A program made the translations under genes and the position numbers. Shown piece by piece: positions 1 to 18,199 of a DNA stretch of 18,199 nucleotides (positions are counted from its first letter, which is position 1; each line of letters starts with the position of its first letter). The DNA is from Gammaproteobacteria bacterium (GTDB taxonomy: Bacteria; Pseudomonadota; Gammaproteobacteria; Pseudomonadales; Halieaceae): assembly GCA_029859085.1 (NCBI GenBank), contig JAOUDU010000005.1, forward strand, positions 1 to 18,199, read 5' to 3'. The notes beneath the pieces are model-generated. The model saw only the letters and a list, made by a program, of their open reading frames with translations. It was not told where the DNA came from and did no database searches.

Positions 1-2
1 CT

Positions 3-47: not shown

Positions 48-83
48 CAGGTGTTTCCGGCCACCCCGCCGCGGTTCATCACC

Positions 84-571: not shown

Positions 572-577
572 CCGTAT

Positions 578-2045: not shown

Positions 2046-2819
2046 ATGAACAGATACGCGACAGCGGTATTGGTGTTTTCGGTGGCGGTAATCACATGGA
2101 TCCAGCCGGTACAGGCCCAGGCACAGGACGCGAAGGCGACCCCGCCGGCGCCGGTCGAGGCTTTTTATTGCAATATGAAGGAGGGCAAGAGCAGCAAGGA
2201 CCTGATGCAGGTAGCAGAAGGCTTCAGCAAGTGGGCGGAGAAGAACGACCCGAGTTACGCCGCCTGGATTATCACCCCCCAGTTCGGCCTGGGCGCGGAC
2301 CTGCCCCAGCTGATCTGGCTCGGGTCCTGGCCCGATGGCAGCGCCATGGGAAAGGGAATAGCGGGTTACGGGGCGGCCGGGGGTGACCAGAAGTTTGGCT
2401 TCGACGCTGTCCTGGACTGCGGCATGGGCCATGTGCTCGCCTCGTCCATAGAAATCAATGCCCCCGACGGTCCCCCCGGGGACGGGGTGGTGATGTTCAC
2501 CGAGTGCAATATCGATGACGGCAGCGATTGGAGCAAGGCTGTCGCCGCGCACAAGAGTTTTTCCGGCGCGATGCGATCCATGGGCTCGAAGGGCTCCAGC
2601 TGGTTGTTTTTCCCGATGCTCGGCGGCGGCGACCTCGCCTATGATTACCTGGCGGTTTCCACCTTCAAGAACTGGGCCGACTACGGCGCGGCCTACGACA
2701 TGTACGTCACCGGGGGCGGCTGGCAGAAAGCCATGGCAACCTACGAGGGCGTTGCAAGCTGTGACGCGGTCCCACCCACCGTGTGGGATGTCAAGCTGGT
2801 GCGCCAGGGCAAGCGCTAG
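2046..2819 (+). CDS. Secreted protein with two tandem copies of a Cys-bounded domain
   Basis: Function is unknown. The 257-residue protein starts at the ATG at 2046, chosen because AGGAAA lies 8 bases upstream and a Sec signal peptide follows directly (hydrophobic residues 5-20, likely cleavage after VQA at about residue 24). The mature part contains two similar halves, about 38-127 and 148-241. Each begins with a Cys-Asn pair (YCNM, ECNI), continues with an amphipathic helix (LMQVAEGFSKWAEK, AVAAHKSFSGAMRS), then a Trp-containing strand ending in a Pro-Met or Pro-Gln turn, a strand with W or Y, and closes at a Cys (Cys125, Cys239). The pattern suggests a ferredoxin-like or dimeric alpha-beta-barrel fold duplicated in one chain, each copy possibly closed by a disulfide. 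The fold is inferred and the duplication is seen directly. The gene is divergent from the lipoprotein gene and 144 bases upstream of the glucan synthase gene. Confidence 0.8.
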   Translation: MNRYATAVLVFSVAVITWIQPVQAQAQDAKATPPAPVEAFYCNMKEGKSSKDLMQVAEGFSKWAEKNDPSYAAWIITPQFGLGADLPQLIWLGSWPDGSAMGKGIAGYGAAGGDQKFGFDAVLDCGMGHVLASSIEINAPDGPPGDGVVMFTECNIDDGSDWSKAVAAHKSFSGAMRSMGSKGSSWLFFPMLGGGDLAYDYLAVSTFKNWADYGAAYDMYVTGGGWQKAMATYEGVASCDAVPPTVWDVKLVRQGKR

Positions 2820-2873
2820 ATCTGAAGCAGCCGGGTCTATTCCGGGCTCTGCCTGCAATGTCCTCCGGATTGT

Positions 2874-2915
2874 CGGCAAATTTACATTGCCGGGCACGGG
2901 GCGGGTTGCTAGATT
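2874..2915 (+). promoter_or_regulatory. Candidate sigma-70 promoter overlapping an inverted repeat
   Basis: TTGCCG (2887-2892) and TAGATT (2910-2915) are 17 bases apart, each matching four of six consensus positions. The -35 box is also the right arm of a perfect 6-bp dyad, CGGCAA (2874-2879) with TTGCCG, around the AT-rich loop ATTTACA. The site lies 49 bases upstream of the glucan synthase start. The dyad could be an operator for that gene or a weak terminator for the gene ending at 2819. It lacks a T-tract. Confidence 0.3.
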
Positions 2916-2963
2916 GCGGGGCGTGAACTACCCCACCTTCTGAGCATCCGGCCACTTACTCCT

Positions 2964-5594
2964 ATGCGTATTCCCTCGGCAATTGCGGTCGTCAGCATCG
3001 CGTCCCTCCTCTTCTGGGCGGCCCTGAACCGGCCCCTCGATGCACCGGACTGGGAGGGGAAGTTTGCAGGCGTGTCGTACAACCCTTCCGGCATCTACAA
3101 CCGTGGCGAACTCGAGTCCATTCCCGAACAGCGAATCCGGGAAGACCTGGACCTCCTGCGGGACTGGACCGGCAACGTCCGCACCTACTCTGTGGACCGT
3201 GGGCTGGACGCTGTGCCGCGCATTGCCCGGGAAGTGGGCGGCCTGCACGTGTCGCTGGGAATCTGGCTGTCCGACGACACCGCCTATAACGAGGCCGAAC
3301 TCGCCCGCGCCATTCCATTGATCAACGAGTACCCCGACGTGATCAACCGGGTATTCGTCGGCAACGAGGCGGTGTTGCGGGGCGAGCTGTCAGCTGACGC
3401 CGTCGTGGCCTACCTGCAGAGGGTGAGAGATGCGGTTCCCGAGACCGTCGAGGTCGGCTATGCCGACGTCTGGAGTACCTGGTTGAAATACCCGGAGCTC
3501 GCCCAGGCCAGCGATTTTGTCGGCGCCCACCTGCTGCCTTACTGGGAAGGGGTGGAAGCCGGGGACGGTGAGCGTTATATCCGGGACCGTATGCGGCTGC
3601 TCAGGAAAACGTTTCCAGGCCGGAAGATCGTGATCGCCGAGACCGGCTGGCCGTCCGAAGGGCGCACCAAGCGGAGCTCGGTACCCTCGCCGGCAACCGA
3701 GGCGTATTTCCTGCGTAATTTTCTCGAGCTCGCATCGGATCGCGGTTACGACTACTACCTCATGGAGGCATTCGACCAGCCGTGGAAGCAGGCACAGGAA
3801 GGCGCGGTAGGTGCTTACTGGGGTATTTTTGATGCCCACGCCAGACCCAAGCTTCGCCTCGCGGGAGAGCTCAGCACGCTTCCCGACTGGTACCGGTTTG
3901 CGGGGGTGGCGGTGGCGCTGGTGGTTATCCTGGGGATGCTGGTCATGCCCAGGATGCCCGGCATGAGCGTCCCGGGCTATCTGGCCGTGGGTGTCGCCAT
4001 CGGGGTGGCGGTATCGGAAGTGCTGGCTGTCTTTGACACCTGGAACGTGGAATACCTTGACTGGGGAATCCTGGTATCCGCGGCCCTGGTCGTGCCCGCG
4101 CTGCTATGCGCCGCGACGCTGCTGCTGACCGAGACCGTTGAATTCGCCCTCAGCCTTTGGCGCCAGCGCCGTGTACCCGACCGCCTGGTGCCCGACGGCA
4201 GCCACCCTTTTGTCTCTATCCACCTTCCCACCCACAACGAGCCGCCGTTGATGGTGATGCAGACCCTGAATGCCCTCGCCCGGCTGGACTACCCGAATTT
4301 CGAGGTCATCGTGCTCGACAACAATACCGGGGACGATTCACTGTGGCGGCCGGTCCAGGGCCATTGCCGCGCCCTGGGTCCGAAATTCCGGTTTTACCAC
4401 ATCGACAACGTCAAGGGGTTCAAGGCCGGTGCCCTCAACCTGGCCCTGGAGCTGACTTCGGTCCGCGCGGAAATTGTCGCCGTCATAGACAGCGATTACC
4501 AGGTCGCCCCCGACTGGTTGCGCAGCGCGATGCCTGCGTTCCAGGACCCCCGGGTCGCGCTTGTACAGTGTCCGCAGGACTACCGCGATGCCAACAGCGG
4601 TCGTTTCAAGCGCTGGATCTTCGGCGAGTATGCCGGTTTCTTCCATATCGGCATGGTGGAGCGCAACGAGCACAACGCCATCATCCAGCACGGCACCATG
4701 TGCCTGATGCGCCGGGAGGCGCTGGAATCCGTCGGTGGATGGGCCACCTGGAGCATTACCGAAGACACCGAACTGGGCCTGCGCCTGTTCGAGGCGGGCT
4801 ATGTTGCGCACTATATTCCGCGCTCCCACGGCCGGGGACTGATGCCCGATACCTTCGACGCCTATCGCAAGCAGCGTCATCGCTGGGTTTATGGTGGCAT
4901 GCAGATCCTCAAGCGGCACGCGGGCAGCCTGCTGCTGGGCCGGGCTCCGACAGGTGCGGTCGGCCTGACAGCTGCGCAACGCTACCATTTCCTCGCCGGC
5001 TGGTTGCCCTGGCTTTCCGATGGCCTGTCCGTGGTGTTTGTGGTGCTGGCAATCGCGTGGTCGGTGCTGGCGGCAACCATGCCGGCTACATTTACCGTGC
5101 CCCCGGTTGTACTGTCGCTGGTGGTCGTCGGGCTGTGTGTGATGAAGATCAGCAAGGCGTTGTGGCTGCATCACGCGAGGGTCAACCCGAGTCTGGGGGC
5201 GGCGATGGCTGCTTCACTGGTCGGGCTCGCGTTAAGTTATACCGTCGGGCGGGCCGTGATCAGGGGGCTGGTTACCACCGACCAGCCGTTTATGCGCACT
5301 CCCAAGTGCGAGGCCCCGAATTCGATTGCGGCTGCAATCCGGGGGGCGGGTTCGGAAGTCCTGTTCCTGGTTTCGCTGCTGGTTGCCACCGCCGCGATTA
5401 TCATGGGTACCGGCGCGGATGACCCGGCGGAAGTAGCCTGGCTCGCGGCACTGGCAGTGATGTCCCTGCCCTTTGCAGCGACGCTGGTGGTCGCATTGGT
5501 TTCGGGCTTGCCCCGCGAGAGCGCTGCCGACATGGCTTCCGGTGTTGTGCCTGTTGGGAAAGCAGGGCCGCCTGACGTCGACGTAGCGGCCTGA
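2964..5594 (+). CDS. Bifunctional GH17-GT2 beta-1,3-glucan synthase/transglycosylase
   Basis: This 876-residue inner-membrane protein fuses a glycoside hydrolase family 17 domain to a family 2 glycosyltransferase. An N-terminal hydrophobic anchor (about 5-21) places the GH17 domain (30-310) in the periplasm. Its acid/base Glu135 lies in FVGNEA and its nucleophile Glu226 in AETGWPSEG. Three membrane segments follow (about 312-388). The cytoplasmic GT2 domain (415-650) has THNEPP (423-428), DxD in VIDSDY (Asp509, Asp511), TED (599-601) and QRHRW (637-641), the processive-synthase QxxRW motif. At least four further membrane segments reach residue 848. The GT2 part should polymerise glucose from UDP-glucose, and the GH17 part should cut and rejoin or cyclise beta-1,3 chains. 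Proteobacterial relatives include NdvB/NdvC-type glucan synthases. No PilZ domain is present. The start ATG has only a weak ribosome-binding site. Confidence 0.92.
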   Translation: MRIPSAIAVVSIASLLFWAALNRPLDAPDWEGKFAGVSYNPSGIYNRGELESIPEQRIREDLDLLRDWTGNVRTYSVDRGLDAVPRIAREVGGLHVSLGIWLSDDTAYNEAELARAIPLINEYPDVINRVFVGNEAVLRGELSADAVVAYLQRVRDAVPETVEVGYADVWSTWLKYPELAQASDFVGAHLLPYWEGVEAGDGERYIRDRMRLLRKTFPGRKIVIAETGWPSEGRTKRSSVPSPATEAYFLRNFLELASDRGYDYYLMEAFDQPWKQAQEGAVGAYWGIFDAHARPKLRLAGELSTLPDWYRFAGVAVALVVILGMLVMPRMPGMSVPGYLAVGVAIGVAVSEVLAVFDTWNVEYLDWGILVSAALVVPALLCAATLLLTETVEFALSLWRQRRVPDRLVPDGSHPFVSIHLPTHNEPPLMVMQTLNALARLDYPNFEVIVLDNNTGDDSLWRPVQGHCRALGPKFRFYHIDNVKGFKAGALNLALELTSVRAEIVAVIDSDYQVAPDWLRSAMPAFQDPRVALVQCPQDYRDANSGRFKRWIFGEYAGFFHIGMVERNEHNAIIQHGTMCLMRREALESVGGWATWSITEDTELGLRLFEAGYVAHYIPRSHGRGLMPDTFDAYRKQRHRWVYGGMQILKRHAGSLLLGRAPTGAVGLTAAQRYHFLAGWLPWLSDGLSVVFVVLAIAWSVLAATMPATFTVPPVVLSLVVVGLCVMKISKALWLHHARVNPSLGAAMAASLVGLALSYTVGRAVIRGLVTTDQPFMRTPKCEAPNSIAAAIRGAGSEVLFLVSLLVATAAIIMGTGADDPAEVAWLAALAVMSLPFAATLVVALVSGLPRESAADMASGVVPVGKAGPPDVDVAA

Positions 5595-5613
5595 GGCCGG
5601 CATCTCCCAGCGC

Positions 5614-7389
5614 ATGCCCCAGTCCACCTCGCGCGTCCTGCTGCCCGTACTTTCGACCGCGCTGTTCTACGCGCTGTATTACGCCATCGGGCTGCTGGGA
5701 TTCGATGTCGCCGTGGTGCCCGCTGCGATACCCCGCGACTATGCGCTGAACCTGCTGCTCGCTTACGCGATATTCGAGCTTTCCAGTCGTGCCTGGGTAT
5801 TCCTGCTGGTCCAGGGTTTGTTGATGGCCGTGCTGTACGTCGGCAACGCTGTGAAAATCAGCTACTTCGGCGGGCCGATCATGCCGGATGACGTGTACGC
5901 GCTGCGCACGCTACTGCTGTTGCTGGAAGGCTGGCAGTTCTACCTGGCGGCGCTGCCCCTGGTGATCATCCTCAGTCTTCTCATATTCAACTTCACCCTG
6001 CGCAGGCTGGGCTCCTGGCTGGCGCTGGTGATGTTCCTGCTGCTCGGCGTGACACTGGTTTACCAGCCGCAGAATATCATCAGGCCCCTGGACCGCTATG
6101 TCGGGAATTCGGTGTGGGACCAGCGCTCCAATTATATTTACCGGGGGGCCATGCTTTACACGCTGATGGAGGGTGCCCGCTACTTCGCCGATCGCGTAAT
6201 AGCGCCTGACCAGGAAGCAGTGCGGGCGGCGAGGGCCAGGCTGCGGGCGGGCCTGCCGCAGCGCGACGGGCCAGGCGGGGATTTCGCGCCGCGCAACATA
6301 CACATCATCCTGCTGGAGTCGTTCTGGGATCCGGGTCAGCTCGAAGCGGGGCATTATTCCAGGGATCCGCTGCCGAAGGATTTTCGCGCGCTGTGGCGAC
6401 AGGCCGGTTACAGCCACATTCTTTCGCCTGTATTCGGCGGCTACACCGCCAATGCCGAATTCGAGGCCCTGTGTGGCCTTCCGGTCTTTCAGGATGCAGT
6501 CAAGTTCGAGCGCGACCTGAAAAATGACCTGCCCTGCCTGCCGCGATTGCTGGCGCAGCACGGCTATACCACCATCGCCTCGCACCCGAACGTGCCCGTC
6601 TTCTGGAACCGGGTCAACGCTTACCGGCGGCTCGGCTTCCAGACCTACTGGTCGCTGGAAGATTTCGAGCAGACCGACATGGTTCGCAATTTCATGAGCG
6701 ATGCCTCGCTGTATCGCCAGGTGCTGGATAAGATTGAACCGTGGCTTGAAGGCGGCAGGCCGTTGCTCAATTACATCGTCACCTATTTTGGCCACTGGGA
6801 TTATCCGTTGCGCGGTGAACGCTCCCGTCTAATCAAGGACAAATCGGGTGTGCCCGAGGTGGGCAGTTACGCCAACACGGCCTATTACAAGGCCAGGGAA
6901 TTGATGGTGTTCCTGAAGGAGTTGCGCGAACGCGACCCCGATGCGCTGGTCGTGATTTTCGGGGACCACCTGCCCTACCTCGGGCCGAATTTCGCCGGCT
7001 ACGTCGAGTCTGGCCTGCTGGCGGATGATCGCGGCAAGTTTACGCCCGGTATGTTCGGGATCTACAACGCGGCACCGCTGGTCGTGATCGATGGCAAACG
7101 CGGTCCGCAGCAGCTTGGGACCCTGGCTCTTTACGAGCTGCCGGCGCGACTGCTGCGGCTGCTGCACCTCGAGCCTGCCGGACCGGCGGCGCTGACTGTG
7201 CCCCAACCAGGGCCGCATGTGCGGCCGATACCGGGAATGCATTACCTGGTCAGCGACGGGGGGCAGGTCGAAGTGTGCAAGCAACCCCCCTGGAGCGACA
7301 GCTGCGCCAGCAGCGCGGCCTGGCTCAGGGACGTCTCCACCATTGGCGACGATCTGTCCGTCGGTGGCCAGTTTACAATTGGGGATTAG
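5614..7389 (+). CDS. LtaS/OpgB-type phosphoglycerol transferase, membrane anchored
   Basis: This 591-residue protein has about five N-terminal membrane segments (within 8-150) followed by a periplasmic alkaline-phosphatase/sulfatase-fold domain (about 226-530). The catalytic set of lipoteichoic acid synthase is complete: Glu235 in LLESFWDP (metal ligand), Thr278 in GGYTANAEFE (nucleophile), His394 in YFGHWDYP, and Asp451-His452 in IFGDHLPY (metal ligands). Family members move glycerol phosphate from phosphatidylglycerol to a polymer or glucan acceptor. It starts 19 bases after the glucan synthase stop, so the two are probably co-transcribed and the likely acceptor is that glucan. Two cysteines (555, 564) sit in the tail. 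OpgB (MdoB) in enterobacteria and CgmB in rhizobia are functional parallels. Another substituent such as phosphoethanolamine is possible but less likely, because the motifs are of the LtaS type. Confidence 0.88.
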   Translation: MPQSTSRVLLPVLSTALFYALYYAIGLLGFDVAVVPAAIPRDYALNLLLAYAIFELSSRAWVFLLVQGLLMAVLYVGNAVKISYFGGPIMPDDVYALRTLLLLLEGWQFYLAALPLVIILSLLIFNFTLRRLGSWLALVMFLLLGVTLVYQPQNIIRPLDRYVGNSVWDQRSNYIYRGAMLYTLMEGARYFADRVIAPDQEAVRAARARLRAGLPQRDGPGGDFAPRNIHIILLESFWDPGQLEAGHYSRDPLPKDFRALWRQAGYSHILSPVFGGYTANAEFEALCGLPVFQDAVKFERDLKNDLPCLPRLLAQHGYTTIASHPNVPVFWNRVNAYRRLGFQTYWSLEDFEQTDMVRNFMSDASLYRQVLDKIEPWLEGGRPLLNYIVTYFGHWDYPLRGERSRLIKDKSGVPEVGSYANTAYYKARELMVFLKELRERDPDALVVIFGDHLPYLGPNFAGYVESGLLADDRGKFTPGMFGIYNAAPLVVIDGKRGPQQLGTLALYELPARLLRLLHLEPAGPAALTVPQPGPHVRPIPGMHYLVSDGGQVEVCKQPPWSDSCASSAAWLRDVSTIGDDLSVGGQFTIGD

Positions 7390-7461
7390 CGAGCCCACCG
7401 GCGCCTGTTGTCTCCCATCGCTTTTAGGGGCAAAGTAGCGGGAATAATAGAGGGCATTGCC

Positions 7462-8061
7462 ATGTTCCGGTTCCTGAAGACGACAATCCTGGGTGGTGTG
7501 CTGTTTCTCGTTCCGATCGTGATCTTTCTTGCCGTGATCGGCAAGGCACTCCAGTTGACGCACGCGCTCGCGGCACCGCTCGCCCGGTTGCTGCCCGTTG
7601 CCACAGTCGCCGGGATGGCGGTGGTGGAACTGGTTGCGCTGGGGATACTGGTTCTGGTGTGCTTTGCTGCGGGGCTGGCCGCGAGAACGGCTCGCGCGCG
7701 CAAACTGGTCCAGTCACTGGAGGCCAATGTGCTGGACAAAATACCCGCCTATGCCCTGATGAAAACCAAGACCGGCAGCATACTCGCCCCGGAAGATACC
7801 CAGAATATGCAAGCGGTGCTGGTGCGGTTCGACGATTCCTGGCAGGTTGGCTTCGAAGTTGAAAAAATCGGGGATGGCAAAAGCCTGCTTTTCCTGCCGG
7901 GCTCCCCGGACCCCTGGTCCGGCTCGGTCTGTGCGGTGACCACGGACAGGTTGCAGCCGCTCAATCTGAACATCAAGGAAGTGGGCGTCCTGATGAAACG
8001 GCTCGGCAGGGGCTCCACCGGCGCGCTGGGGGATCCACTGCGCGATAACCAGGCGCGGTGA
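7462..8061 (+). CDS. DUF502 family membrane protein
   Basis: The 199-residue protein has two N-terminal membrane segments (about 8-28 and 50-74) and a soluble C-terminal domain. The order and the motif around FLPGSPDPWSGSV (144-156) fit the DUF502/COG2928 family, in which the corresponding segment is a 'P..P.P.SG' signature. No enzymatic function is established for the family. The ATG at 7462 is chosen because AGGG precedes it by about 8 bases and the hydrophobic segment follows at once. A TTG at 7408 in frame is less likely. It lies 72 bases after the phosphoglycerol transferase gene and may belong to the same transcript, which would tie it to envelope biogenesis. That link is inferred from position alone. 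Confidence 0.75.
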   Translation: MFRFLKTTILGGVLFLVPIVIFLAVIGKALQLTHALAAPLARLLPVATVAGMAVVELVALGILVLVCFAAGLAARTARARKLVQSLEANVLDKIPAYALMKTKTGSILAPEDTQNMQAVLVRFDDSWQVGFEVEKIGDGKSLLFLPGSPDPWSGSVCAVTTDRLQPLNLNIKEVGVLMKRLGRGSTGALGDPLRDNQAR

Positions 8062-8106
8062 ACAGCCGCAGGTAAGCGTACTGACAAAGATAACGGGAGT
8101 GAGCTA

Positions 8107-8589
8107 ATGCCAAAATTCAGCAGGCGGGAACTGGAACAGGCGCTGGAAATATTCAATGAAAAGCGCGATGCGTCCTCCCGCACCGGCGACTGGTCGATCT
8201 GGGCCTCGCTGTTTACCGAGGACGCGGACTATGTGGAGCACGCCTACGGAGAGTTCAAGGGCCGGGCGGCCATCCAGCAATGGATTACCGATGTGATGGC
8301 ACCTTTTCCGCATATGCGGTTTCCCCAGTCCTGGGTAGTCTTCGACGAGGAGACAGGGACGATCACGATGGAAGTGATCAACCTGCTCGATCACCCCACG
8401 GACCCGGGCCACGAAGGTTTCGGCTTTCCCAACTGGACCCGGCTGACCTACGCGGGTGACGGGCTCTTCTCCAGGGAAGAGGATATCTATAACCCGACCC
8501 GGGACGCGGGCCGGGTTATCAAGGCCTGGCTGGCGGCGGGAGGAAAATTCGCCAGCGGCGAAAAGGTCGCGATGAGGCATTCCCGGTAA
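8107..8589 (+). CDS. SnoaL-like (NTF2-fold) protein
   Basis: The 160-residue protein matches the pattern of NTF2-superfamily SnoaL-like domains: an N-terminal helix, then W32-x3-F36-TEDADYVEH with the usual Asp/His-lined pocket, GEFKGRAAIQQWI (48-60), and a curved sheet ending in a 'GDGLFSREEDIYNP' strand (117-130). The fold hosts small isomerases, cyclases and dehydratases as well as non-catalytic binding proteins, so no reaction can be assigned. GGGAG lies 8 bases before the ATG. It is followed 42 bases later by an LLM flavin oxidoreductase gene, a neighbourhood seen in hydrophobic-compound catabolism, though nothing else here confirms such a pathway. Confidence 0.78.
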   Translation: MPKFSRRELEQALEIFNEKRDASSRTGDWSIWASLFTEDADYVEHAYGEFKGRAAIQQWITDVMAPFPHMRFPQSWVVFDEETGTITMEVINLLDHPTDPGHEGFGFPNWTRLTYAGDGLFSREEDIYNPTRDAGRVIKAWLAAGGKFASGEKVAMRHSR

Positions 8590-8631
8590 AGCCAGCTCTG
8601 CAGTAAGTTCATTCGCGCTAAGGATTTCCCG

Positions 8632-9603
8632 ATGGCAACTGTCGTTATGCGCTTCGATTTCCGTTGCCCGCCGGGCAATGCCGTGGCGGCGGACGAGCTG
8701 TATCACGCGGCGCTGGAGATGGCTGCCTATTCCGATGGCAGGGGAGTCGATGTCATCGGCCTGTCGGAACACCACAATACAGATGATGGCTACCTTAGTG
8801 CGCCGCTGACTGTCGCGACGGCGATGGCGGCCCGAACCAGCCGGGCGATGATCAGCATCGGGGCCTTGCTGGTACCGCTTTACGACCCGATCAAGCTGGC
8901 GGAGGACCTGGCGATACTTGATATCGTGGCTCGCGGCAGGCTGATGGTCATCGCCGGCATCGGCTACCGGGAACAGGAATACCACGCGCTTGGCAGGGAC
9001 TGGGCACGGCGTGGCGAGCAACTGGAGCTGAGCCTGGGTGTGCTGCGGCAGGCCTGGCTGGGTGAGCCGTTTCTCTACAAGGGGCAGCTGGTGACCGTAT
9101 TGCCGCGGCCCTACAGCCGGCCGCACCCCTTGATAGCGGTGGGAGGCAACAGCGTCCTGGCCGCGCGCCGGGCGGCGCGCCTGCAACTGCCGTTCTTTCC
9201 CGGTATCGACGATGCCGCGCTGGTGGATGCTTATAACGATGAATGCAGGCGGAACGCGTACGCGGGCGGTTTTGTGATGCTGCCCAATTACCCGTCTACC
9301 ACCTATATCGCCGAAGATGTCGAGGAGGGTTGGCGGGAGATCGGCGAGTACATGCTGTACGATGCGATCGCCTATGGCGCCTGGCGCCACAGCACCCGGC
9401 GGGCTTACGCGGAATCCTTTGCCCACGACCTCGCCAGCCTGCGCGCGGAGGGTAAATACCGGGTACTTACCCCGGCACAGGCCGCGGCGGTGGTCCGGGA
9501 AACCGGCTCGCTGCACCTGTCGCCGCTGGTGGGCGGATGCCCGCCGGCCCTGGGATGGAAAAGCCTCCGGTTGTTCACCGACCAGGTGGTGCCGGCTTTA
9601 TAA
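8632..9603 (+). CDS. LLM class flavin-dependent oxidoreductase
   Basis: The 323-residue protein is a luciferase-like (TIM-barrel) flavin oxidoreductase. Evidence is the early GLSEHH (43-48) motif, the conserved block from PLYDPIKLAEDLAILD through GRLMVIAGIGYREQEY (82-117), and PLIAVGGNS (166-174), which forms part of the flavin phosphate site. Family members use FMNH2 or F420H2 for monooxygenation or hydride transfer. The cofactor cannot be decided by eye, but FMN is the likelier in a proteobacterium. AGGA lies 7 bases before the ATG. The segment after residue 190 is variable in this family and probably sets the substrate, which is unknown. It sits between the SnoaL-like gene and the histidine phosphatase gene on the same strand. 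Confidence 0.87.
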   Translation: MATVVMRFDFRCPPGNAVAADELYHAALEMAAYSDGRGVDVIGLSEHHNTDDGYLSAPLTVATAMAARTSRAMISIGALLVPLYDPIKLAEDLAILDIVARGRLMVIAGIGYREQEYHALGRDWARRGEQLELSLGVLRQAWLGEPFLYKGQLVTVLPRPYSRPHPLIAVGGNSVLAARRAARLQLPFFPGIDDAALVDAYNDECRRNAYAGGFVMLPNYPSTTYIAEDVEEGWREIGEYMLYDAIAYGAWRHSTRRAYAESFAHDLASLRAEGKYRVLTPAQAAAVVRETGSLHLSPLVGGCPPALGWKSLRLFTDQVVPAL

Positions 9604-9651
9604 TGCCGGGAATGCAATAGCGCAATCCACTGTGAGCTGAGGTGTAGCTGC

Positions 9652-10269
9652 ATGAAAAGCCAAACCCGATTGGGCCTTGTACGTCACGGGCAGACCCATG
9701 CGAATATCGAGCATGTGTGGCACGGGCAGACCGATACCGCCCTGACGGAACTGGGCCACCGGCAGGCGCGCCTGCTGGGCCGGCACTTCCACCGCTACAT
9801 GGAACCGGAGGTAATCTACGCCAGTCCATTGCAGCGTGCGCGGCTCACTGCGGAAGCGGTAGCCGCACGCTACAGTATCCCTGTCCAGCTTGATCCCCGG
9901 CTCATGGAATTCGACCTGGGCGACTGGGAGGGGGCCACGTTCGAATCCCTGCGAGGGGCCGGCAATATCATGGAGCAATTGGTGCGCAACCCGGACTTTT
10001 CCGCGCCCAACGGCGAGTCACAGAACCTGGTCAGGAAACGCATGGTCGAGGCGATCGAGGACATTACCCACCGGCACCCGCAACAGAATATTGTCATCGT
10101 TGCCCACGGGGTGGCCATCGGCATCGCGCTCTCACACCTCATCGAAGGCGACACAACCCGCTGGCCAAACTACACCAAGGACAACACGGCCTTTTCCGAG
10201 CTGTGCCTCAGCACCAATACGCTGCTGAGCTACAATAAAACCGATCATCTTGAAGCCGGTGACCGTTGA
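9652..10269 (+). CDS. Histidine phosphatase family protein (phosphoglycerate-mutase fold)
   Basis: The 205-residue protein carries the full histidine-phosphatase set: the RHG motif at 11-13 with phospho-acceptor His12, Arg62 in ASPLQRARLTAE, acidic Glu86 in LMEFDLGDWEG, and His152 in VIVAHGVA. It should be a cytosolic phosphatase or cofactor-dependent phosphoglycerate-mutase-like enzyme. The length (about 200 residues) matches GpmB/CobC-type members rather than glycolytic GpmA (about 250). The substrate cannot be read from the sequence. Its TGA stop shares its last A with the ATG of the next gene (TGATG), so the two are likely translationally coupled. Confidence 0.88.
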   Translation: MKSQTRLGLVRHGQTHANIEHVWHGQTDTALTELGHRQARLLGRHFHRYMEPEVIYASPLQRARLTAEAVAARYSIPVQLDPRLMEFDLGDWEGATFESLRGAGNIMEQLVRNPDFSAPNGESQNLVRKRMVEAIEDITHRHPQQNIVIVAHGVAIGIALSHLIEGDTTRWPNYTKDNTAFSELCLSTNTLLSYNKTDHLEAGDR

Positions 10270-10475
10270 TGAAGCCCGGGCGATACCGCCATTTCAAAGG
10301 CGGAGAATACCGGGTCCAGGGTGTGGCCAGGCACTCTGAGTCCGGTGAGTTACTGGTGGTGTATACACCCCTGTATGGCGAAGGCGGCCTGTGGGTGCGC
10401 CCCCTCGATATGTTTCGGGAAACGGTAGAGCACGAGGGCCGGGAACGGGCCCGTTTTGAGTATGTGGGGCCATAG
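10269..10475 (+). CDS. DUF1653 domain protein
   Basis: This 68-residue protein is a complete DUF1653 domain: GRYRHFKGGEYRVQGVARHS at the start, VVYTPLYGEGGLWVRPLDMF in the middle and a closing RFEYVG. The domain is small and beta-rich, common in proteobacteria, and has no agreed function. The ATG at 10269 overlaps the preceding stop by one base. A TTG at 10266 in frame would add only one residue. The coupling with the histidine phosphatase gene suggests the two are made together, but I know of no shared role. Confidence 0.87.
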   Translation: MKPGRYRHFKGGEYRVQGVARHSESGELLVVYTPLYGEGGLWVRPLDMFRETVEHEGRERARFEYVGP

Positions 10476-10574
10476 GGTAAAGTGGCGCCCCGGTGGCAAA
10501 AACAGCAACAGGGGCGCAGTCCGGCGCCAGGCAGATCCATGTTCAACCGCAACACACATCCGGCCTGTTCGGTA

Positions 10575-13142
10575 ATGCGCCGCCGAACTGACCAGGGGCG
10601 CCTCCGGTATCTGGCCCGATTCGGCGCCACACTGGCCTTCGGCATTTTACTCGCGGGCTGTGGCGGTTCCGGGTCCTCCGGGCCCGGATCGCCGGGAACG
10701 GGCTCGTCCGGAGCCGGCGCCGGCGCACCTGCTGCGGGACCGGCCAGCGGGCAGGACCGGCAGCTGGGCTATTACACCCATACCAAGGCCATCATCGACT
10801 CCCGCTGCGTCACCTGCCACCGCGATGGCGGCCAGGCTCCATTCCCGTTGACCGATTATGCCGAGGTGGCCGCGAAACGTTCCGCGATGATCTATGCGCT
10901 GGAATCCGGCACCATGCCCATCCCGGGTTTCGCGCCACTGTCCGTGCAGGAGCGCGAGTTGCTGTTGCAGTGGCTGGAGCAGGGCGCTGCCAAAGGACAT
11001 TCCCCGGAAGGCGGGCAAACCACACCCTATACCTATTATGGACAAGCGAAAGCGATCATTGAAGCGAAGTGCGCCGGCTGTCATCGGCCCGGCGAGAACG
11101 CGCCGTTCAGCCTGACAGATTACGACAGCGTCTATGCGGTGCGCGCCGCCGTGGCGCACCAGGTAGCCTCCGGCGCGATGCCGCCCTGGCCCCCGACAAA
11201 CCATTTCCTGCCCCTGCAAGACAATCGTTCCCTCGCGGATGAAGACAAGGCCATATTGAATTCCTGGCTCGCCGGCGGGGCGCCCGCGGGTAATCCCGGT
11301 GACTATAGCCCGGCCCCGCAGAACCCCGCCGGGATAGATTATAACCTCACGATTTCAATGAATGAGCCGTATACACCCACCGTGCAACCTGACGACTACC
11401 GCTGCCTGATGATCGACTGGCCCCTGGACCATACGGTGTTCGTGGATGCGGTCAACGTCATACCCGATGCCAGGGCCCAGGTGCACCACGCTTTCGCGGT
11501 GATTATCGATCCGGAGAACCTCGCTCCCTTTGAGGCTGCCGATGGTGCCGATGGCAAGCCGGGGTTTCCCTGCTGGGGCGCGCCCTCGCCGCAAGGTACT
11601 CTGTTGCCCCCCCGGGCACTGTCAGTGTGGGCGCCCGGTGTCACTGCGGGTTACCTTCCCGCGGGTACCGGTGTGCGGGTTGCACCCGGTTCCAGGATCG
11701 TGATGCAGATGCACTACAACACTACCAATTCAGAGCCCGTGGCGGACCAGTCGGGCCTCGAAATACATTATGTGGATGCGGTGGACCGGGAGGCGCTCAC
11801 CCTGTTTTTCCTGGATGTGCGCTGGCCTGGCCCCGGGGGCATGCCAATACCCGCGGGAGACCCCAGTGTCACCTTCACGCATACCAGCGATGTGGGCTGG
11901 GCCATGGCGTTTGTCGGTGCGGACAAGGTCGGTATAAGTCCCGAGGAGCCTTTCGCGCTGCACAGCGTCTACCTGCACCAGCACGTCCTGGGTCGTTCCA
12001 ATTCTATCGAATTGATTCGCGAGGACGGTACCGAAATAATGCTGGTGGATATTCGCGACTGGGACTTCGACTGGCAGGACGAATACACCTTCGATAAAGA
12101 GATTATCGTGCAACCCGGCGACAAATTCCGCCTGACCTGCAACTGGGATAATTCCGCTTCCAACCAGCAGTTTGTCGACGGCAAGCAGCTCGAGCCGCGC
12201 TACGTCGAGTTCGGGGAGGGCACTTTCGATGAAATGTGCGTAAGCTATTTTTACGTTACCCGGGTGCGGGAGGAAGACAGGGGCACACTGCAGGATATTT
12301 TGCCGACAGTCGGGTTTCGCCAGCCGCAATACCTGCAGGTTTTCCACCCTGGCGATTATCTGCCGGTTGAGTTATTGGTAAACGCCTTCAGCCTGCAGGA
12401 ACCCGACAGCAGCCACGCTGACCACGGGCATACCGATGTGGTAGAGGGCGTCGACACCGGCCCGACCCACGATCACCGCGCCGGGCACTACCACCTTTAT
12501 CTCGACACCGATGACGACAACGCAGCCCATTCACTGGGCTGGGACGCCGCTACCTATTACCAGCTGCCGGAGGATATCGCACCCGGGAGGCACACCCTGC
12601 GGGTGAGCCTGCGGGACGATATGCATGAAGCCACAGGAGTGGAAAGCCGCGTGACCTTCGTCGTCGAGGCCGATCCCGGGGCGGGGCGACCGGCTGCTGT
12701 GGAATCATTGGTCGATGTGGAGGACTGGCAGTCCCAGGACGCGACAACCGATTCACTGGCGGGTCATCGCCCTGATACCGTCAGCTGCCCGGAGAACGCC
12801 TGGTACGAGGAAGACGGGGCGCTGGAAGTGGAGACGGGTTACTGCAATTACCTGTCGTTGCGGCAGCCCAGCAAGGTCGGGGTCAGCAAAGGCGACAATA
12901 TTCACCTCGTGTTGTGGCACGGGCAGCTTCGTTTTGACGAGCCGGCGGAGGCACATGTGGCCGTGTCGATCGGCGGCAAGGTGATATGGGAACTCGAGAC
13001 AGGAATACCCGACGCCGGTGCGGTATACGATGTTACCATTCCCTCCACTATTACGGCGCCGCCGGGCGAGATGGTGGAGTTCCACCTTCACAACCACGGC
13101 TATAACAGCTGGACGCTGCTGACTCTGGAAGTCCGGCACTGA
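10575..13142 (+). CDS. Diheme cytochrome c-copper (PHM/DBH-type) monooxygenase lipoprotein
   Basis: The 855-residue lipoprotein (lipobox LAGC, Cys29) has a Gly/Ser-rich linker, then two tandem cytochrome c modules: CVTCH (78-82) with likely axial Met114 in GTMPIP, and CAGCH (166-170) with Met202 in GAMPPW. A copper type II monooxygenase region follows (about 258-565). It holds every ligand known from peptidylglycine alpha-hydroxylating monooxygenase: His304-His305 (QVHH) and His380 (MQMHYN) for CuH, and His468, His470 (LHQHVLGR) and Met554 (DEMC) for CuM. A beta domain (about 580-700) includes a His-rich loop, and a C-terminal beta-sandwich (715-855) has two cysteines (738, 757). It should hydroxylate an unknown substrate at the cell surface or in the periplasm, with the hemes plausibly feeding electrons. 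Upstream starts at 10539 (ATG, AGG 7 bases before) and 10482 (GTG) are possible; 10575 gives the most compact signal peptide. Confidence 0.88.
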   Translation: MRRRTDQGRLRYLARFGATLAFGILLAGCGGSGSSGPGSPGTGSSGAGAGAPAAGPASGQDRQLGYYTHTKAIIDSRCVTCHRDGGQAPFPLTDYAEVAAKRSAMIYALESGTMPIPGFAPLSVQERELLLQWLEQGAAKGHSPEGGQTTPYTYYGQAKAIIEAKCAGCHRPGENAPFSLTDYDSVYAVRAAVAHQVASGAMPPWPPTNHFLPLQDNRSLADEDKAILNSWLAGGAPAGNPGDYSPAPQNPAGIDYNLTISMNEPYTPTVQPDDYRCLMIDWPLDHTVFVDAVNVIPDARAQVHHAFAVIIDPENLAPFEAADGADGKPGFPCWGAPSPQGTLLPPRALSVWAPGVTAGYLPAGTGVRVAPGSRIVMQMHYNTTNSEPVADQSGLEIHYVDAVDREALTLFFLDVRWPGPGGMPIPAGDPSVTFTHTSDVGWAMAFVGADKVGISPEEPFALHSVYLHQHVLGRSNSIELIREDGTEIMLVDIRDWDFDWQDEYTFDKEIIVQPGDKFRLTCNWDNSASNQQFVDGKQLEPRYVEFGEGTFDEMCVSYFYVTRVREEDRGTLQDILPTVGFRQPQYLQVFHPGDYLPVELLVNAFSLQEPDSSHADHGHTDVVEGVDTGPTHDHRAGHYHLYLDTDDDNAAHSLGWDAATYYQLPEDIAPGRHTLRVSLRDDMHEATGVESRVTFVVEADPGAGRPAAVESLVDVEDWQSQDATTDSLAGHRPDTVSCPENAWYEEDGALEVETGYCNYLSLRQPSKVGVSKGDNIHLVLWHGQLRFDEPAEAHVAVSIGGKVIWELETGIPDAGAVYDVTIPSTITAPPGEMVEFHLHNHGYNSWTLLTLEVRH

Positions 13143-13191
13143 TGTTCCCGCGCCCTTCAATTTGCACGGCGCACAGAATCGGGTATGCACT

Positions 13192-14790
13192 ATGAAGCGA
13201 TGGAATGGCTGGGGTGATGACGAAAATGACCTTGGCCTGGAGTTGAGTCCTTCGGCACTGGCTTATTTACAGCAGCTGGTCGGTCCGTCCACCGCCCTGC
13301 CCGCCGCCACGCTGGAGGAAGTCCTGTCCAGGGTGCCCCCATCGCGGCTGCCGCCGCACACGCTGGTGAGCGTCGATGCCGAGGATCGCGTGCGCCACGC
13401 CAGGGGCCAGAGCCTGCCAGACTGGCTGGCATTGCGCAGCGGTGACTTCGGCGTGTTTCCCGATGGGGTGGCTTTCCCTAAAACCAGTGCCGAGGTAGGC
13501 GACCTGCTGCAGTATGCGCGGCAACACCAGGTCAGCGTTATTCCCTATGGCGGGGGGACGTCGGTGGTCGGGCATATCAACCCGGAGGCGGGGGGGCGTC
13601 CCGTGCTCACCATTGATATGACGGGCATGAACCGGCTGATCGCGCTGGACCGGGAAAGCCAGATCGCCACCTTTGGCGCCGGGGCCAACGGACCGCAGGT
13701 GGAATCGGCACTGGCGCAGGCAGGGTATACCCTTGGCCATTACCCCCAGTCCTGGGAGTTGTCCACTGTCGGCGGCTGGGTGGCCAGCCGTTCCAGCGGC
13801 CAGCAATCCATGCGCTATGGTCGTATCGAGCAGATGTTTGCCGGCGGGCATATAGAGACCCCGATGGGCTCGCTGGAGATTCCCTCCTTCCCGGCATCGT
13901 CGGCGGGACCGGATATCCGGGAAATGATCATGGGCAGCGAAGGGCGCATGGGTATTATCACCGAGGTCAAGGTCCGCGTAACACCGCTGCCCGAGCGCGA
14001 GTCATTCCACGTGATCTTTTTCCCCGACTGGGATGCCGGCCTGAAGGCGGTGCGGGCCATGGCCCAGGGCAAGGTGCAGCTATCGATGATGCGCCTCAGC
14101 AACACCATCGAGACATTTACCCAGCTCAAGCTGGCCGGCGGCGGCACGGCCATCAGCCTGCTGGAAAAATACCTGGCCCTGCGGGGGGTCGGCGACAGCA
14201 AGACCATGTTCACTTTCGGCGTCACCGGTTCCCGCGCCCAGTGTAAGGCCGCTCTGGCCCTGGCCAACGGCTTCGCGCGCCGACACGGCGGCGTCGGTAC
14301 CGGCACCCTGCTGGGCAGGAAGTGGGAACACGGGCGCTTCCGTTCGCCCTATCTGCGCGAGGGCCTGTGGGACGCGGGCTATGCGGTGGATACGATGGAG
14401 ACGGCTATCGACTGGATCAGGGTGCCGGACGCGCCGGCGGTGATCGAGGCGGCGATTACCGGGGCACTGGCGGAAGAAAAGGAGACGGTGCATGCGTTTA
14501 CCCACCTGTCGCATATCTACCCCCAGGGCTCCAGCGTCTACACCACCTATATCTTCCGTTGCGGCAGTTCCTACGCCCAGACCCACGCTCGCTGGCAACA
14601 GCTGAAGGCGGCGGGTGCCCGGGCGATAGTCGAGCTGGGCGGGACCATCAGTCACCAGCACGGTGTCGGCAAGGACCACGCCATGTATCTGCCGGCGGAG
14701 AAAGGCGAGCTGGGTATCGCCGCCATCCAGGGCCTGGTGGATGTGTTTGATCCGCAGGGGCAGATGAACCCGGGCAAGCTGTTGCCCTGA
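13192..14790 (+). CDS. FAD-binding oxidase, alkylglycerone-phosphate synthase-like
   Basis: The 532-residue protein is a VAO/PCMH-type flavoprotein close to alkyl-DHAP synthase (AGPS). It begins MKRWNGWGDD, as bacterial members do. The FAD domain has FPKTSAEV (95-102), PYGGGTSVVG (118-127), GHYPQSWELSTVGGWVASRS (182-201) and MGSEGRMGIITE (247-258). The substrate domain keeps counterparts of AGPS Arg419 (Arg301 in MMRLSN), Arg515 (Arg389 in YLRE) and Tyr578 (Tyr450). The eukaryotic HHH triad is His488-Gln489-His490 here. AGPS exchanges the acyl group of acyl-DHAP for a fatty alcohol, giving the ether bond. Bacterial relatives may do this or oxidise a hydroxy acid or polyol phosphate. Downstream GlpD and an FGGY kinase favour a triose- or glycerol-phosphate substrate. 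E. coli YgcU beside kinase YgcE is a similar pairing. A TTG at 13162 is a less likely start. Confidence 0.85.
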   Translation: MKRWNGWGDDENDLGLELSPSALAYLQQLVGPSTALPAATLEEVLSRVPPSRLPPHTLVSVDAEDRVRHARGQSLPDWLALRSGDFGVFPDGVAFPKTSAEVGDLLQYARQHQVSVIPYGGGTSVVGHINPEAGGRPVLTIDMTGMNRLIALDRESQIATFGAGANGPQVESALAQAGYTLGHYPQSWELSTVGGWVASRSSGQQSMRYGRIEQMFAGGHIETPMGSLEIPSFPASSAGPDIREMIMGSEGRMGIITEVKVRVTPLPERESFHVIFFPDWDAGLKAVRAMAQGKVQLSMMRLSNTIETFTQLKLAGGGTAISLLEKYLALRGVGDSKTMFTFGVTGSRAQCKAALALANGFARRHGGVGTGTLLGRKWEHGRFRSPYLREGLWDAGYAVDTMETAIDWIRVPDAPAVIEAAITGALAEEKETVHAFTHLSHIYPQGSSVYTTYIFRCGSSYAQTHARWQQLKAAGARAIVELGGTISHQHGVGKDHAMYLPAEKGELGIAAIQGLVDVFDPQGQMNPGKLLP

Positions 14791-14852
14791 TTGCAACAGG
14801 GTCGCCCTTCACCCGCCAGGAGAACCTGGTCCAGTGCCAGGACAGGATGAGA

Positions 14853-16463
14853 ATGAGCAGCAGCCAGCCGACTTTCAACGACCGCGCAGCCCTCTGGGCG
14901 CAATTGCAGCAGGCCCCGTCGCAATGGGATATGGTGATTGTGGGCGGCGGTATTATAGGCGCCGGCATTTTGCGCGAAGCGGCCCGGCGCGGCCTGAAGG
15001 TGCTGCTGCTGGAACAGCGGGATTTCGCCTGGGGCACCTCCAGCCGCTCCTCCAAAATGGTCCACGGCGGCCTGCGCTATATCCTCCAGGGCGATATCGG
15101 GCTCACCCGCGAATCCCTGCAGGAGCGCGAGCGCCTGCTGCAGGAGGCCCCCGGCCTTATCGATCGCATGGGCTATTACTTCACCGTGCGCAAGGGCCGG
15201 TTCCCGGGCCGGGTCGCCTTCAGCCTGCTGCTGGCCTTCTACGATTTCATGGCGGGGATCAGGGACCATCACTTCCTGCCGCGTGCCGATGTGCTGCGGC
15301 ACTTTCCCGGCATCGACGACACCGGGCTCAAGGGTGCCTGTTACTACACCGACACCGTCACCGATGATGCGAGGCTGGTACTGCGCATCCTGCAGGAGGC
15401 GATAGCGGCGGGGGGCCTCGCGGCCAATTATGTGAGGGTCGAAAGCCTGCTGCGCAGCCGGGGACTGGTGGACGGGGTGGTGGCGGTGAATACGCAGACC
15501 GGGGAGCGTGTGCAGCTCAAGGCGCGGTCGGTCGTCAACGCCACCGGCACCTGGGCGGACCGACTGCGCCACGAGGTCAACCCGGAAACCCGGGTCCGGC
15601 CCCTGCGCGGGAGCCACCTGGTGCTGGCGCGGGAGCGGCTGCCGGTGCACGATTGCCTGACCATATTCCACCCCCGGGACAAGCGACCGGTATTCGCCTT
15701 TCCCTGGGAGGGGGCGACCGTCGTCGGCACCACCGACCTGGACCACCGGCAGGACCCTGATACGGAAGCCACTATCAGCAACGGGGAGCTGGACTACCTG
15801 CTGGAGGCTGTGAATGACCAGTTTCCCCGGCATGCCATTGGCCGCGACGACATTATCTCCACCTGGTCTGGTGTCCGCCCCGTTATCGGCTCGGACAAAT
15901 CGAAGGATCCCTCCAAAGAGCGGCGCAATCACGCGGTGTGGGTGGATGAGGGCCTGGTGACGGTCACGGGCGGCAAGCTTACCACTTTCCGCAAGATCGC
16001 CCTGGACGCCATGGCCGCAGCGACTGCGACCCTGGGAGAAATGCGCATTACAGAGCCGGATCAAGCCGTGTTCGGCAGCACCAGTATCAGCGCCGCCGAT
16101 ATCGGCCTGGCGGATGAGTCCCGCGCCCGGCGCCTGGCGGGGCGCTACGGCGCCGCGGTGATGCGTTTGTTCGAAGGGGTCGCGGCAACGGAGCGGGCGA
16201 ACATAGGCGGCACCGGGTTCTGCCTGGCTGAATGCCGCTGGGCCGCGCGCAACGAGTCAGTCCTTCACCTGGATGACCTGCTGCTGCGCCGCACCCGCCT
16301 GGGCTCGCTGCTGCCCGGGGGCGGCGCAGAGATCTTCGGTGCGCTGGAAACCATTTGCGCCGAGGAACTGCACTGGGACCAGGCCCGCTGGCAGGCCGAG
16401 CTGGCGCGTTACCGGGATATCTGGGAGCGGCACTACTACCTGCCGACCCCGGCAACCGGCTGA
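14853..16463 (+). CDS. glpD: FAD-dependent glycerol-3-phosphate dehydrogenase
   Basis: The 536-residue enzyme oxidises sn-glycerol-3-phosphate to DHAP and passes electrons to the quinone pool at the inner membrane. Evidence: the dinucleotide-binding GGGIIGAG (31-38), the GlpD signature GTSSRSSKMVHGGLRY (61-76), NATGTWAD (229-236), GTTDLDH (292-298), SGVRP (339-343) and TGGKLTTFRK (372-381), and a C-terminal domain with LLRRTRLG. The ATG at 14853 is preferred because AGGA ends 5 bases before it. An ATG at 14847 would add two residues. It starts 62 bases after the AGPS-like gene and is followed 27 bases later by the FGGY kinase gene, so the three are likely one operon. The length is slightly above the E. 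coli enzyme (about 500). A paralogue specialised for this cluster is possible. Confidence 0.9.
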   Translation: MSSSQPTFNDRAALWAQLQQAPSQWDMVIVGGGIIGAGILREAARRGLKVLLLEQRDFAWGTSSRSSKMVHGGLRYILQGDIGLTRESLQERERLLQEAPGLIDRMGYYFTVRKGRFPGRVAFSLLLAFYDFMAGIRDHHFLPRADVLRHFPGIDDTGLKGACYYTDTVTDDARLVLRILQEAIAAGGLAANYVRVESLLRSRGLVDGVVAVNTQTGERVQLKARSVVNATGTWADRLRHEVNPETRVRPLRGSHLVLARERLPVHDCLTIFHPRDKRPVFAFPWEGATVVGTTDLDHRQDPDTEATISNGELDYLLEAVNDQFPRHAIGRDDIISTWSGVRPVIGSDKSKDPSKERRNHAVWVDEGLVTVTGGKLTTFRKIALDAMAAATATLGEMRITEPDQAVFGSTSISAADIGLADESRARRLAGRYGAAVMRLFEGVAATERANIGGTGFCLAECRWAARNESVLHLDDLLLRRTRLGSLLPGGGAEIFGALETICAEELHWDQARWQAELARYRDIWERHYYLPTPATG

Positions 16464-16490
16464 CAGCGCGTCCCGCCCGGAGCCCGTCTT

Positions 16491-18050
16491 ATGAGTACTG
16501 ATAAAAAATACCTGCTCGCGATTGATAACGGCACCCAGAGCGTCCGCGCGCTGGTGTTCGACCTGGACGGCCAGCTTGTCGCCAAAAGCCAGGTGGAGAT
16601 CGAGCCGTTCTTTTCGGACCAGCCCGGCTGGGCCGAGCAGCATGCCGACTATTTCTGGGACAGGCTCTGTGATGCCTGCCAGCAGCTCTGGCCCCGGCTG
16701 GACTTCCCCCGCACCGCCATCCAGGCGGTGGCACTGACCACCCAGCGCGCCACTGTCATAAACCTCGACGCCGAGGGCAAACCCCTGAGGCCCGCTATCA
16801 TCTGGCTGGACCAGCGCGAGCAGCTCCAGTTGCCCGGTATGGGCGCCTGGGGGGTGGTGCTTGGCATGGCGGGGGCGACCGCGAATGTACGCTCATTTCG
16901 CAGCCAGGCTGAAGCCAACTGGATCGCGGCCCGGCAGCCCGATATCTGGCGGCGCACGGCGAAATTCCTGCTGCTGTCCGGTTACCACAGCTACAGGCTC
17001 ACCGGGCGCTATGTCGATTCTGTAGCCAGCCAGGTCGGTTACCTGCCGTTCGACTTCCGGCGCCAGCAGTGGTGCGGGCCGCGGGACTGGAAGTGGAAGG
17101 CACTGCCGATTGTGCGGCAGCAATTGCCCGAACTGGTTCCCGCCGGCGCTGAACTTGGGCGCATCACCGAACAGGCGGCCAGGGAAACCGGTATTCCCGC
17201 CGGCCTGGCGCTGATATCCGCGGGCGCGGACAAGGCCTGCGAGGTGCTGGGCTCCGGCTGCCTGGAGCCGACTGTCGGCAGCCTCAGCTATGGCACCACC
17301 GCCACCTATAACACCGTGGACAGCCGCTACCTGGAAATGATCAGGCAGGTACCTGCCTACCCGGCAGCCGTGCCGGGCCTGTATAACTCGGAGACGATTG
17401 TGCAGCGCGGGTACTGGATGGTGAACTGGTTCAAGCGCGAATTCGGCCAGCCCGAGCAGGTCCTGGCAGCCCGCAGCGGGGTAAAACCGGAAGCACTGTT
17501 CGACGACCTGCTGCGCCAGGTGCCGGCCGGCTCGATGGGACTGGTGTTACAGCCCTACTGGTCTCCCGGCCTGCGGATCCCGGGCCCGGAGGCCAAGGGC
17601 GCGATCATCGGTTTCGGCGACGTCCACACCCGCGCCCATATCTACCGCGCCATCATTGAGGGGCTGGCGTACGCCCTGCGGGAGGGCAGCGAGCGCCACG
17701 AAAGGCGCAGCGGCCACAAGATCGACCGGCTGAAAGTATCGGGCGGGGGCTCCCAGAGCGACCAGGCGATGCAAATTACCGCGGACATTTTCGGCCTGGC
17801 AGCCGAGCGCCCGCACACCTTCGAAACCTCCGGCCTTGGCGCCGCGATCAATGCCGCCGTGGCGACCGGGCTGTACCCGGACTACGCGACCGCGATAGGC
17901 CGGATGACCCATCCCGGCGCTGTTTTCACCCCCATCCCGGCAAACGTGCAGATCTATGAGCAGATCTACCGGCAGGTTTACCGCAAGCTCTACGGCAGGC
18001 TGGGGCCTTTGTACAAGGCGATAAGGAGTATTACCGGCTATCCGGCCTGA
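16491..18050 (+). CDS. FGGY-family carbohydrate/polyol kinase
   Basis: The 519-residue protein is a sugar or polyol kinase of the FGGY family, with the two-domain actin-like ATPase fold. Visible motifs are the phosphate-1 loop DNGTQSVRALVFD (12-24), GWAEQ (46-50), TTQRATVINLD (83-93), IIWLDQR (103-109), the catalytic-base region SAGADKACEVLG with Asp247, SYGTTATYNT (266-275), and the C-terminal VSGGGSQSD (416-424). Glycerol kinases carry an Arg-Glu pair where this protein has Arg86-Ala87, so the polyol contact made by that Glu is absent. Glycerol may therefore not be the substrate, and another triol, a tetritol or a ketose is possible. The location after GlpD still points to a product used with glycerol-3-phosphate chemistry. 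GGAG lies about 9 bases upstream of the ATG, and a terminator-like hairpin follows. Confidence 0.88.
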   Translation: MSTDKKYLLAIDNGTQSVRALVFDLDGQLVAKSQVEIEPFFSDQPGWAEQHADYFWDRLCDACQQLWPRLDFPRTAIQAVALTTQRATVINLDAEGKPLRPAIIWLDQREQLQLPGMGAWGVVLGMAGATANVRSFRSQAEANWIAARQPDIWRRTAKFLLLSGYHSYRLTGRYVDSVASQVGYLPFDFRRQQWCGPRDWKWKALPIVRQQLPELVPAGAELGRITEQAARETGIPAGLALISAGADKACEVLGSGCLEPTVGSLSYGTTATYNTVDSRYLEMIRQVPAYPAAVPGLYNSETIVQRGYWMVNWFKREFGQPEQVLAARSGVKPEALFDDLLRQVPAGSMGLVLQPYWSPGLRIPGPEAKGAIIGFGDVHTRAHIYRAIIEGLAYALREGSERHERRSGHKIDRLKVSGGGSQSDQAMQITADIFGLAAERPHTFETSGLGAAINAAVATGLYPDYATAIGRMTHPGAVFTPIPANVQIYEQIYRQVYRKLYGRLGPLYKAIRSITGYPA

Positions 18051-18073
18051 GCGGCCCCCGCGGGTCGCATTCC

Positions 18074-18092
18074 CCGGTAGCAACCGGTTTTT
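18074..18092 (+). terminator. Rho-independent terminator after the FGGY kinase gene
   Basis: CCGGT (18074-18078) pairs with ACCGG (18083-18087) around the 4-base loop AGCA, followed directly by TTTTT. The stem is short (5 bp) but GC-rich, and the position 24 bases after the kinase stop fits the end of the three-gene operon. Confidence 0.4.
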
Positions 18093-18199
18093 ACCGCATC
18101 GATCCTGTGTGAAAGTACCGAATTTTCGGTTTACCCTGCGATTTTTTGCTTATTTCACCATTTTGGCGCCCGTATTTGCGGTCATTACCGCTTCAAGCT
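18093..18199. other. AT-richer intergenic tail, no gene seen
   Basis: The last 107 bases are clearly richer in A and T than the rest of the window, with several T-runs, as expected for a promoter region of a gene beyond the right edge. I see no well-spaced -35/-10 pair and no start codon with a ribosome-binding site. Confidence 0.4.

Follow-up and report, generated by a model that had tools for sequence, protein, structure and literature searches.

A Halieaceae lipoprotein that joins two cytochrome c modules to a PHM/DBH-type dicopper domain

Analysis of an 18,199-nucleotide stretch of DNA (positions 1-18,199 of the forward strand of contig JAOUDU010000005.1, assembly GCA_029859085.1, from a member of the Halieaceae, Gammaproteobacteria; the whole stretch is hereafter the window) revealed a gene for an 867-residue lipoprotein (10539-13142, + strand) that resembles a dicopper monooxygenase with two hemes and has 120 homologues among the matches listed. 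We read its product as a lipid-anchored, exported dicopper monooxygenase with a PHM/DBH fold, one that would be reduced through its own hemes, and we give this reading a probability of about two in three (0.68). Sequence alignment and structure comparison assign to the protein, in this order, a signal with a lipobox, two cytochrome c modules, a PHM/DBH double domain with all six copper ligands, an immunoglobulin (Ig)-like domain and a jelly-roll domain. Beyond this anatomy we infer copper loading, an electron path from heme through CuH to CuM, activation of O2, and a substrate located outside the cytoplasm.

The PHM/DBH-type double domain spans positions 11340-12275 (+ strand, as do all features of this gene). 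With residues counted from the ATG at 10539, its putative CuH ligands are His316-His317 (11484-11489, aligned with VHH of PHM) and His392 (11712-11714, aligned with QVHYG of PHM and EVHY of DBH), and its putative CuM ligands are His480 and His482 of an HQH motif (11976-11984, aligned with HTH of both enzymes) together with Met566 in DEMC (12234-12236, aligned with DEMC of PHM and EEMC of DBH). All six positions align with those of PHM and four of the six with those of DBH, and in a MAFFT alignment each ligand is kept in 120/120 homologues listed. The six ligands named in a preliminary description of this DNA are thereby confirmed, and the case it had regarded as contrary to its view, namely homologues that keep the hemes and have lost the copper ligands, occurs in none of the 120. 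Because both heme and copper residues are conserved across the homologue alignment, the motifs lie well beyond chance, and a chance origin was rejected. Two Pfam families match the whole protein above their cut-offs, Cu2_monoox_C (PF03712; 36.2 bits, cut-off 23) and Cytochrome_CBB3, and two more, Haem_bd and DUF4399, match below theirs. The fold match covers both copper domains, giving the window protein the double-domain PHM/DBH fold, and the N-domain family PF01082 (Cu2_monooxygen) is present in a number of homologues.

The two cytochrome c modules occupy positions 10746-11339. The first contains CVTCH (residues 90-94, 10806-10820) followed by Met126 (10914-10916), and the second contains CAGCH (residues 178-182, 11070-11084) followed by Met214 (11178-11180). 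Among the 68 homologues longer than 730 residues, the MAFFT alignment shows CxxCH at the first site in 66 (two gaps) and the methionine in 67 (one gap); at the second site both are found in 119/120 homologues listed, the exception being P0070, which is without its N-terminus. The preliminary description was thus right about two CxxCH modules, each with a downstream methionine, and these conserved methionines are probably the axial heme ligands. Cytochrome_CBB3 scores 37.7 bits over the whole window protein (cut-off 27), with no individual stretch under the E-value limit, and the top structural match of the first module is PccH, a Geobacter cytochrome. A CcmF_C match of 411 bits was obtained in the organism's own genome, CcmF being the sole heme c maturation component sought; because CcmF is present, heme c attachment appears plausible, and both modules are likely to carry heme c.

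The open frame (10482-13142, stop codon 13140-13142) is intact. It holds a pair of in-frame ATG codons (10539 and 10575) upstream of the lipobox within 10482-10575, and either may be the start codon: the preliminary description used ATG 10575, which gives 855 residues, and the alternative ATG 10539 gives 867. The lipobox, LAGC (10650-10661), ends in the presumed lipidated Cys41, whose column holds cysteine in 65 of the 68 homologues longer than 730 residues and gaps in the other three, in agreement with the earlier proposal of a lipoprotein. Anchoring at the cell surface had also been proposed, which goes further than the data do, since lipidation alone is insufficient for surface exposure.

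A search with the full-length protein yielded 197 relatives, of which 120 were listed, including the window's own protein (P0001). As this query included the heme modules, a second search used the copper domain alone, as a 19-sequence profile, and gave 527 matches, of which 120 were listed. CxxCH precedes the copper domain in 110 of these 120, and the remaining ten comprise, as judged by eye, six proteins that seem N-terminally cut and four that seem heme-free. In the latter (P0200, P0202, P0204 and P0212), an N-terminal hydrophobic stretch replaces the heme module, and they are possible controls for the role of the heme. We also collected loci from contigs of one genome per species, retaining the best 80 of 553 confirmed relatives. 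The closest relatives (ten of the best 80, L018-L027) are labelled Halioglobus, Haliea, Halieaceae and, once, Gammaproteobacteria; the other 70 come mostly from Myxococcota, Deltaproteobacteria or their members and are of a one-heme type. CxxCH lies in frame with the copper domain in 69 of these 70 loci, and in the sole exception, L054, CGASCH (CX3CH) takes its place. Judged by such motifs, a heme site beside the copper domain is the rule, with exceptions, in the sampled part of the family, and the heme-copper fusion is common in the family and not unique to the window protein. The occurrence of the same domain order in other genomes, which had been suggested as a check, was also found.

Within the family, the window protein is a member of a Halieaceae group that carries two hemes and a jelly-roll; the two-heme protein is present in 18/140 Halieaceae genomes (E below 1e-130). 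PF03712 is rare elsewhere, with matches in 2 of 397 sampled Pseudomonadota genomes, the organism's own being one of the two. A quick tree with SH-aLRT support was built from 117 of 121 rows, leaving out P0001, the long P0108 and P0109, and one row with a short aligned stretch; several one-heme rows drew long-branch warnings. The window protein falls in group A, a set of 29 rows with support 100; of the 42 rows in a second long group, 39 fall in clade B, also with support 100; and the 71 rows of both long groups come together with support 99. P0108 (1277 residues) and P0109 (1260 residues) contain TPR-type repeats, two CxxCH motifs and a pair of HHA motifs separated by about 600 residues, a layout that looks as if the heme-copper unit had been partly duplicated.

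Two C-terminal domains, absent from the preliminary description, complete the protein: an Ig/fibronectin type III-like domain with a weak resemblance to DUF4399 (12300-12677) and a jelly-roll domain whose fold is like that of carbohydrate-binding modules (12690-13139). In 9 of the 70 one-heme-type loci, a share that may be inflated as those loci were ranked with the full-length query, a stand-alone jelly-roll gene lies within about 1 kb of a copper-enzyme gene, directly downstream in six (L028, L029, L032, L037, L060 and L081), upstream in two (L048 and L061) and divergent in one (L039). As the jelly-roll domain is fused to the copper enzyme in one group and encoded by an adjacent gene in another, it most likely works together with it. 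Across 68 fused, nine separate and five second-family rows, the near-universal jelly-roll residues are Trp730, Asp738, Pro745, Cys750, Glu758, Glu763, Cys769, Gln776, Pro824, Asn852, His853, Gly854 and Asn856; His853, in an NHG motif, is invariant and may mark a metal site, but the other histidines vary in at least one group. The second family includes three lipoprotein-like open frames of 873-983 residues from Halieaceae (L192, L193 and L194) with permuted modules: a jelly-roll domain, a heme-like CX4CH motif (C-A-x-S-x-C-H), a PHM-like region with the ligands HH, NSH, HTH and DDEM (read by eye), and an Ig-like segment resembling that of the window protein, with an extra leading CxxCH module in L192 and L194. 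The presence of the same kinds of modules in a different order supports the view that the heme, copper, Ig-like and jelly-roll modules form one working set.

Proteins of group B, which are 45-49% identical to the window protein, represent a sister paralogue with a fixed genomic position. Their gene is immediately followed, on its downstream side, by genes for a thioredoxin-like protein, a DUF4266-type protein (ending in GGGCGCN), DUF3570 and ApbE. DUF3570 is found 739-794 base pairs downstream in 10/10 genomes in which the contig continues (G147, G143, G152, G004, G153, G151, G036, G081, G011 and G034); in G002 and G000 a contig break falls inside the group B gene and the C-terminal piece adjoins the operon, which brings the total to 12/12 testable loci. 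In the organism's own genome the group B copy is apparently split by contig ends into C203 (2576-3256) and C769 (6-332), with thioredoxin, DUF4266, DUF3570 and ApbE genes coming after the latter piece. This arrangement matches the ApbE/DUF3570/DUF4266/thioredoxin(/DsbD) flavin electron-transfer systems, in which DUF3570 is flavinylated at two [S/T]GA[S/T] motifs and DUF4266 is a small CXC protein, the function of the system being described as uncertain (PMC8238504, in the part available to us); the main text of that paper, to the same extent, does not contain the words monooxygenase and copper. Both SGAS flavinylation motifs are present in 8/8 DUF3570 proteins checked, including that of the organism's own genome. 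The use of DUF3570 alone as a predictor of the monooxygenase was rejected, as it occurs in 60/140 Halieaceae genomes versus the 18/140 with the two-heme protein. Among the 70 one-heme-type loci, profiles built from Halieaceae sequences, which distant relatives could escape, detected DUF3570, DUF4266 or ApbE in none, with one thioredoxin-like match (L049).

If the window protein is a heme-reduced monooxygenase, an electron would enter at a heme, move to the heme module adjoining the copper domain and continue to CuH and then CuM, where O2 activation would lead to hydroxylation of a C-H bond in an exported or external substrate. It is plausible that electrons reach the copper through the attached hemes, which would take over the job of ascorbate in the animal enzymes, and the jelly-roll domain, whether fused or encoded next door, probably serves to bind the substrate or to position the enzyme. 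The likely upstream donor in the case of the sister paralogue is the adjacent thioredoxin/DUF4266/flavinylated DUF3570 module. We therefore offer, as a tentative extension for the sister group, a flavin-heme-copper relay for O2 activation outside the cytoplasm, in which the covalent flavin mononucleotide of DUF3570, charged via thioredoxin/DUF4266, would reduce the two hemes, and these in turn CuH and CuM; the window protein would be a paralogue with a changed donor. The wiring to the respiratory chain assumed in the preliminary description has no such backing, the sole conserved partner operon found being this flavin/thiol electron-transfer module, and that for the sister paralogue only. Overall, the earlier picture holds for the PHM/DBH fold, the ligands, the cytochrome modules and the lipobox, and falls short for surface exposure and the respiratory-chain link.

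Several observations weigh against a heme-reduced monooxygenase. At E<=0.001 the window protein lacks a PF01082 match, the structure search supports the cytochrome fold weakly, and the four apparently heme-free relatives indicate that the heme is dispensable to the fold. DUF3570 is beside the group A gene, at 63-65% identity and with the window included, in 0/7 genomes (G000, G142, G144, G146, G149, G150 and G155, two of them without any DUF3570 match), and the window gene itself is not adjacent to a Trx-DUF4266-DUF3570-ApbE set. Other Halieaceae carry the flavin operon in the absence of the monooxygenase, so the operon does not serve this enzyme exclusively. Sequence does not reveal which way the electrons flow, and biochemistry was found for no family member.

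This last point leaves room for a PHM-like domain that binds copper and is no oxygenase, the protein then being an envelope heme-copper electron carrier, or a copper sensor or store. The operon of the sister paralogue, with its CXC protein (DUF4266) and thioredoxin-like protein, makes copper or thiol handling possible; however, all of the homologues listed preserve both copper sites, the methionine of CuM among them, and a carrier would presumably have no need of an O2-activating site so strictly maintained, so we consider this explanation unlikely. A reversed flow, with an oxidation at the copper domain and hemes that pass the electrons to an acceptor, may fit the PccH match of the first module, and c-type cytochromes operate in both electron directions, but the six-ligand PHM/DBH site is, to our knowledge, found only in reductant-consuming monooxygenases, which makes this scheme quite improbable. 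That the protein is a plain cytochrome whose PHM-like appendage is dead and free of copper, as the names of some relatives ('mono/diheme cytochrome c family protein') might suggest, is hardly credible when none of the six ligands has been lost in any listed homologue.

The genes downstream of the monooxygenase gene (13162-18050) suggested one more function, that of an ether-lipid or glycerolipid enzyme. By Pfam and NCBIfam matches they encode an AGPS-like flavin adenine dinucleotide (FAD) oxidase, a GlpD-like dehydrogenase and an FGGY kinase, and they lie on the same strand after a gap of 20-50 base pairs, depending on the start codon, as expected of one operon. However, the AGPS-like gene occurs in 20/140 Halieaceae genomes, and seven others with both genes carry them on separate contigs. 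Broken assemblies may mask some adjacency, but not in G002, a genome of the same genus, which has all three genes independently of the monooxygenase and whose nucleotide similarity to the window starts at 13181, past the monooxygenase gene. Contig separation and this starting point led us to reject the operon, and the idea is largely refuted and very improbable.

Elsewhere in the window, positions 2964-8061 encode a GT2-family membrane glycosyltransferase that also matches GH17 weakly, followed by a membrane protein resembling sulfatase/LtaS and a protein of family DUF502, a set that looks like glucan synthesis with phosphoglycerol decoration. A comparison of the window with L128, L129, L138 and L139 (five flanks, to the contig ends) found no neighbour family that the window has in common with any of the four, and the close relatives L129 and L139 have several neighbour genes in common. 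The other families that recur among the 70 one-heme-type loci (for example response regulators, kinases and acyl-CoA dehydrogenases) look like generic genes, as judged by eye from the sequences.

Textbooks present PHM and DBH as animal enzymes fed by ascorbate. Compared with animal DBH (PDB 4zel) and PHM (1phm, 1sdw and others), the window protein shows about 20% identity and, unlike them, is a lipoprotein in which two cytochrome c modules precede the copper domain, Ig-like and jelly-roll domains follow it, and hemes probably take the place of ascorbate. With the PHM-like proteins of one-heme type from Myxococcota and further bacteria it shares a cytochrome c module ahead of the same copper domain and ligands, whereas those have a single heme module and no fused jelly-roll, which is a separate gene near a copper-enzyme gene in the nine loci mentioned above. 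Unlike the sister paralogue, the window copy stands outside any ApbE/DUF3570/DUF4266/thioredoxin operon. The fold and the ligands are already known, and many heme-fused members are present in databases, in some cases under the name 'monooxygenase' or 'mono/diheme cytochrome c family protein'. In the portions available, the table of a 2020 review gives PHM and DBH (DBM) only under eukaryotes (PMC7435645), and another paper calls PHM widespread in eukaryotes (PMC8812541). Among the matches listed from the open-access literature, taken by titles and abstract openings (subscription papers and preprints being outside the scope), no experimental study of a heme-fused PHM/DBH-like protein was found.

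A bacterial branch with a built-in heme c reductant would show how this family works in the absence of ascorbate and would pin down where the single electrons enter, and a self-reducing exported hydroxylase could also serve as a practical catalyst. The fixed place of the sister paralogue beside a flavinylation module makes it a candidate acceptor for the DUF3570/DUF4266 system; if the relay is true, it would provide both an ascorbate-free drive for PHM-type enzymes and an acceptor for this orphan system.
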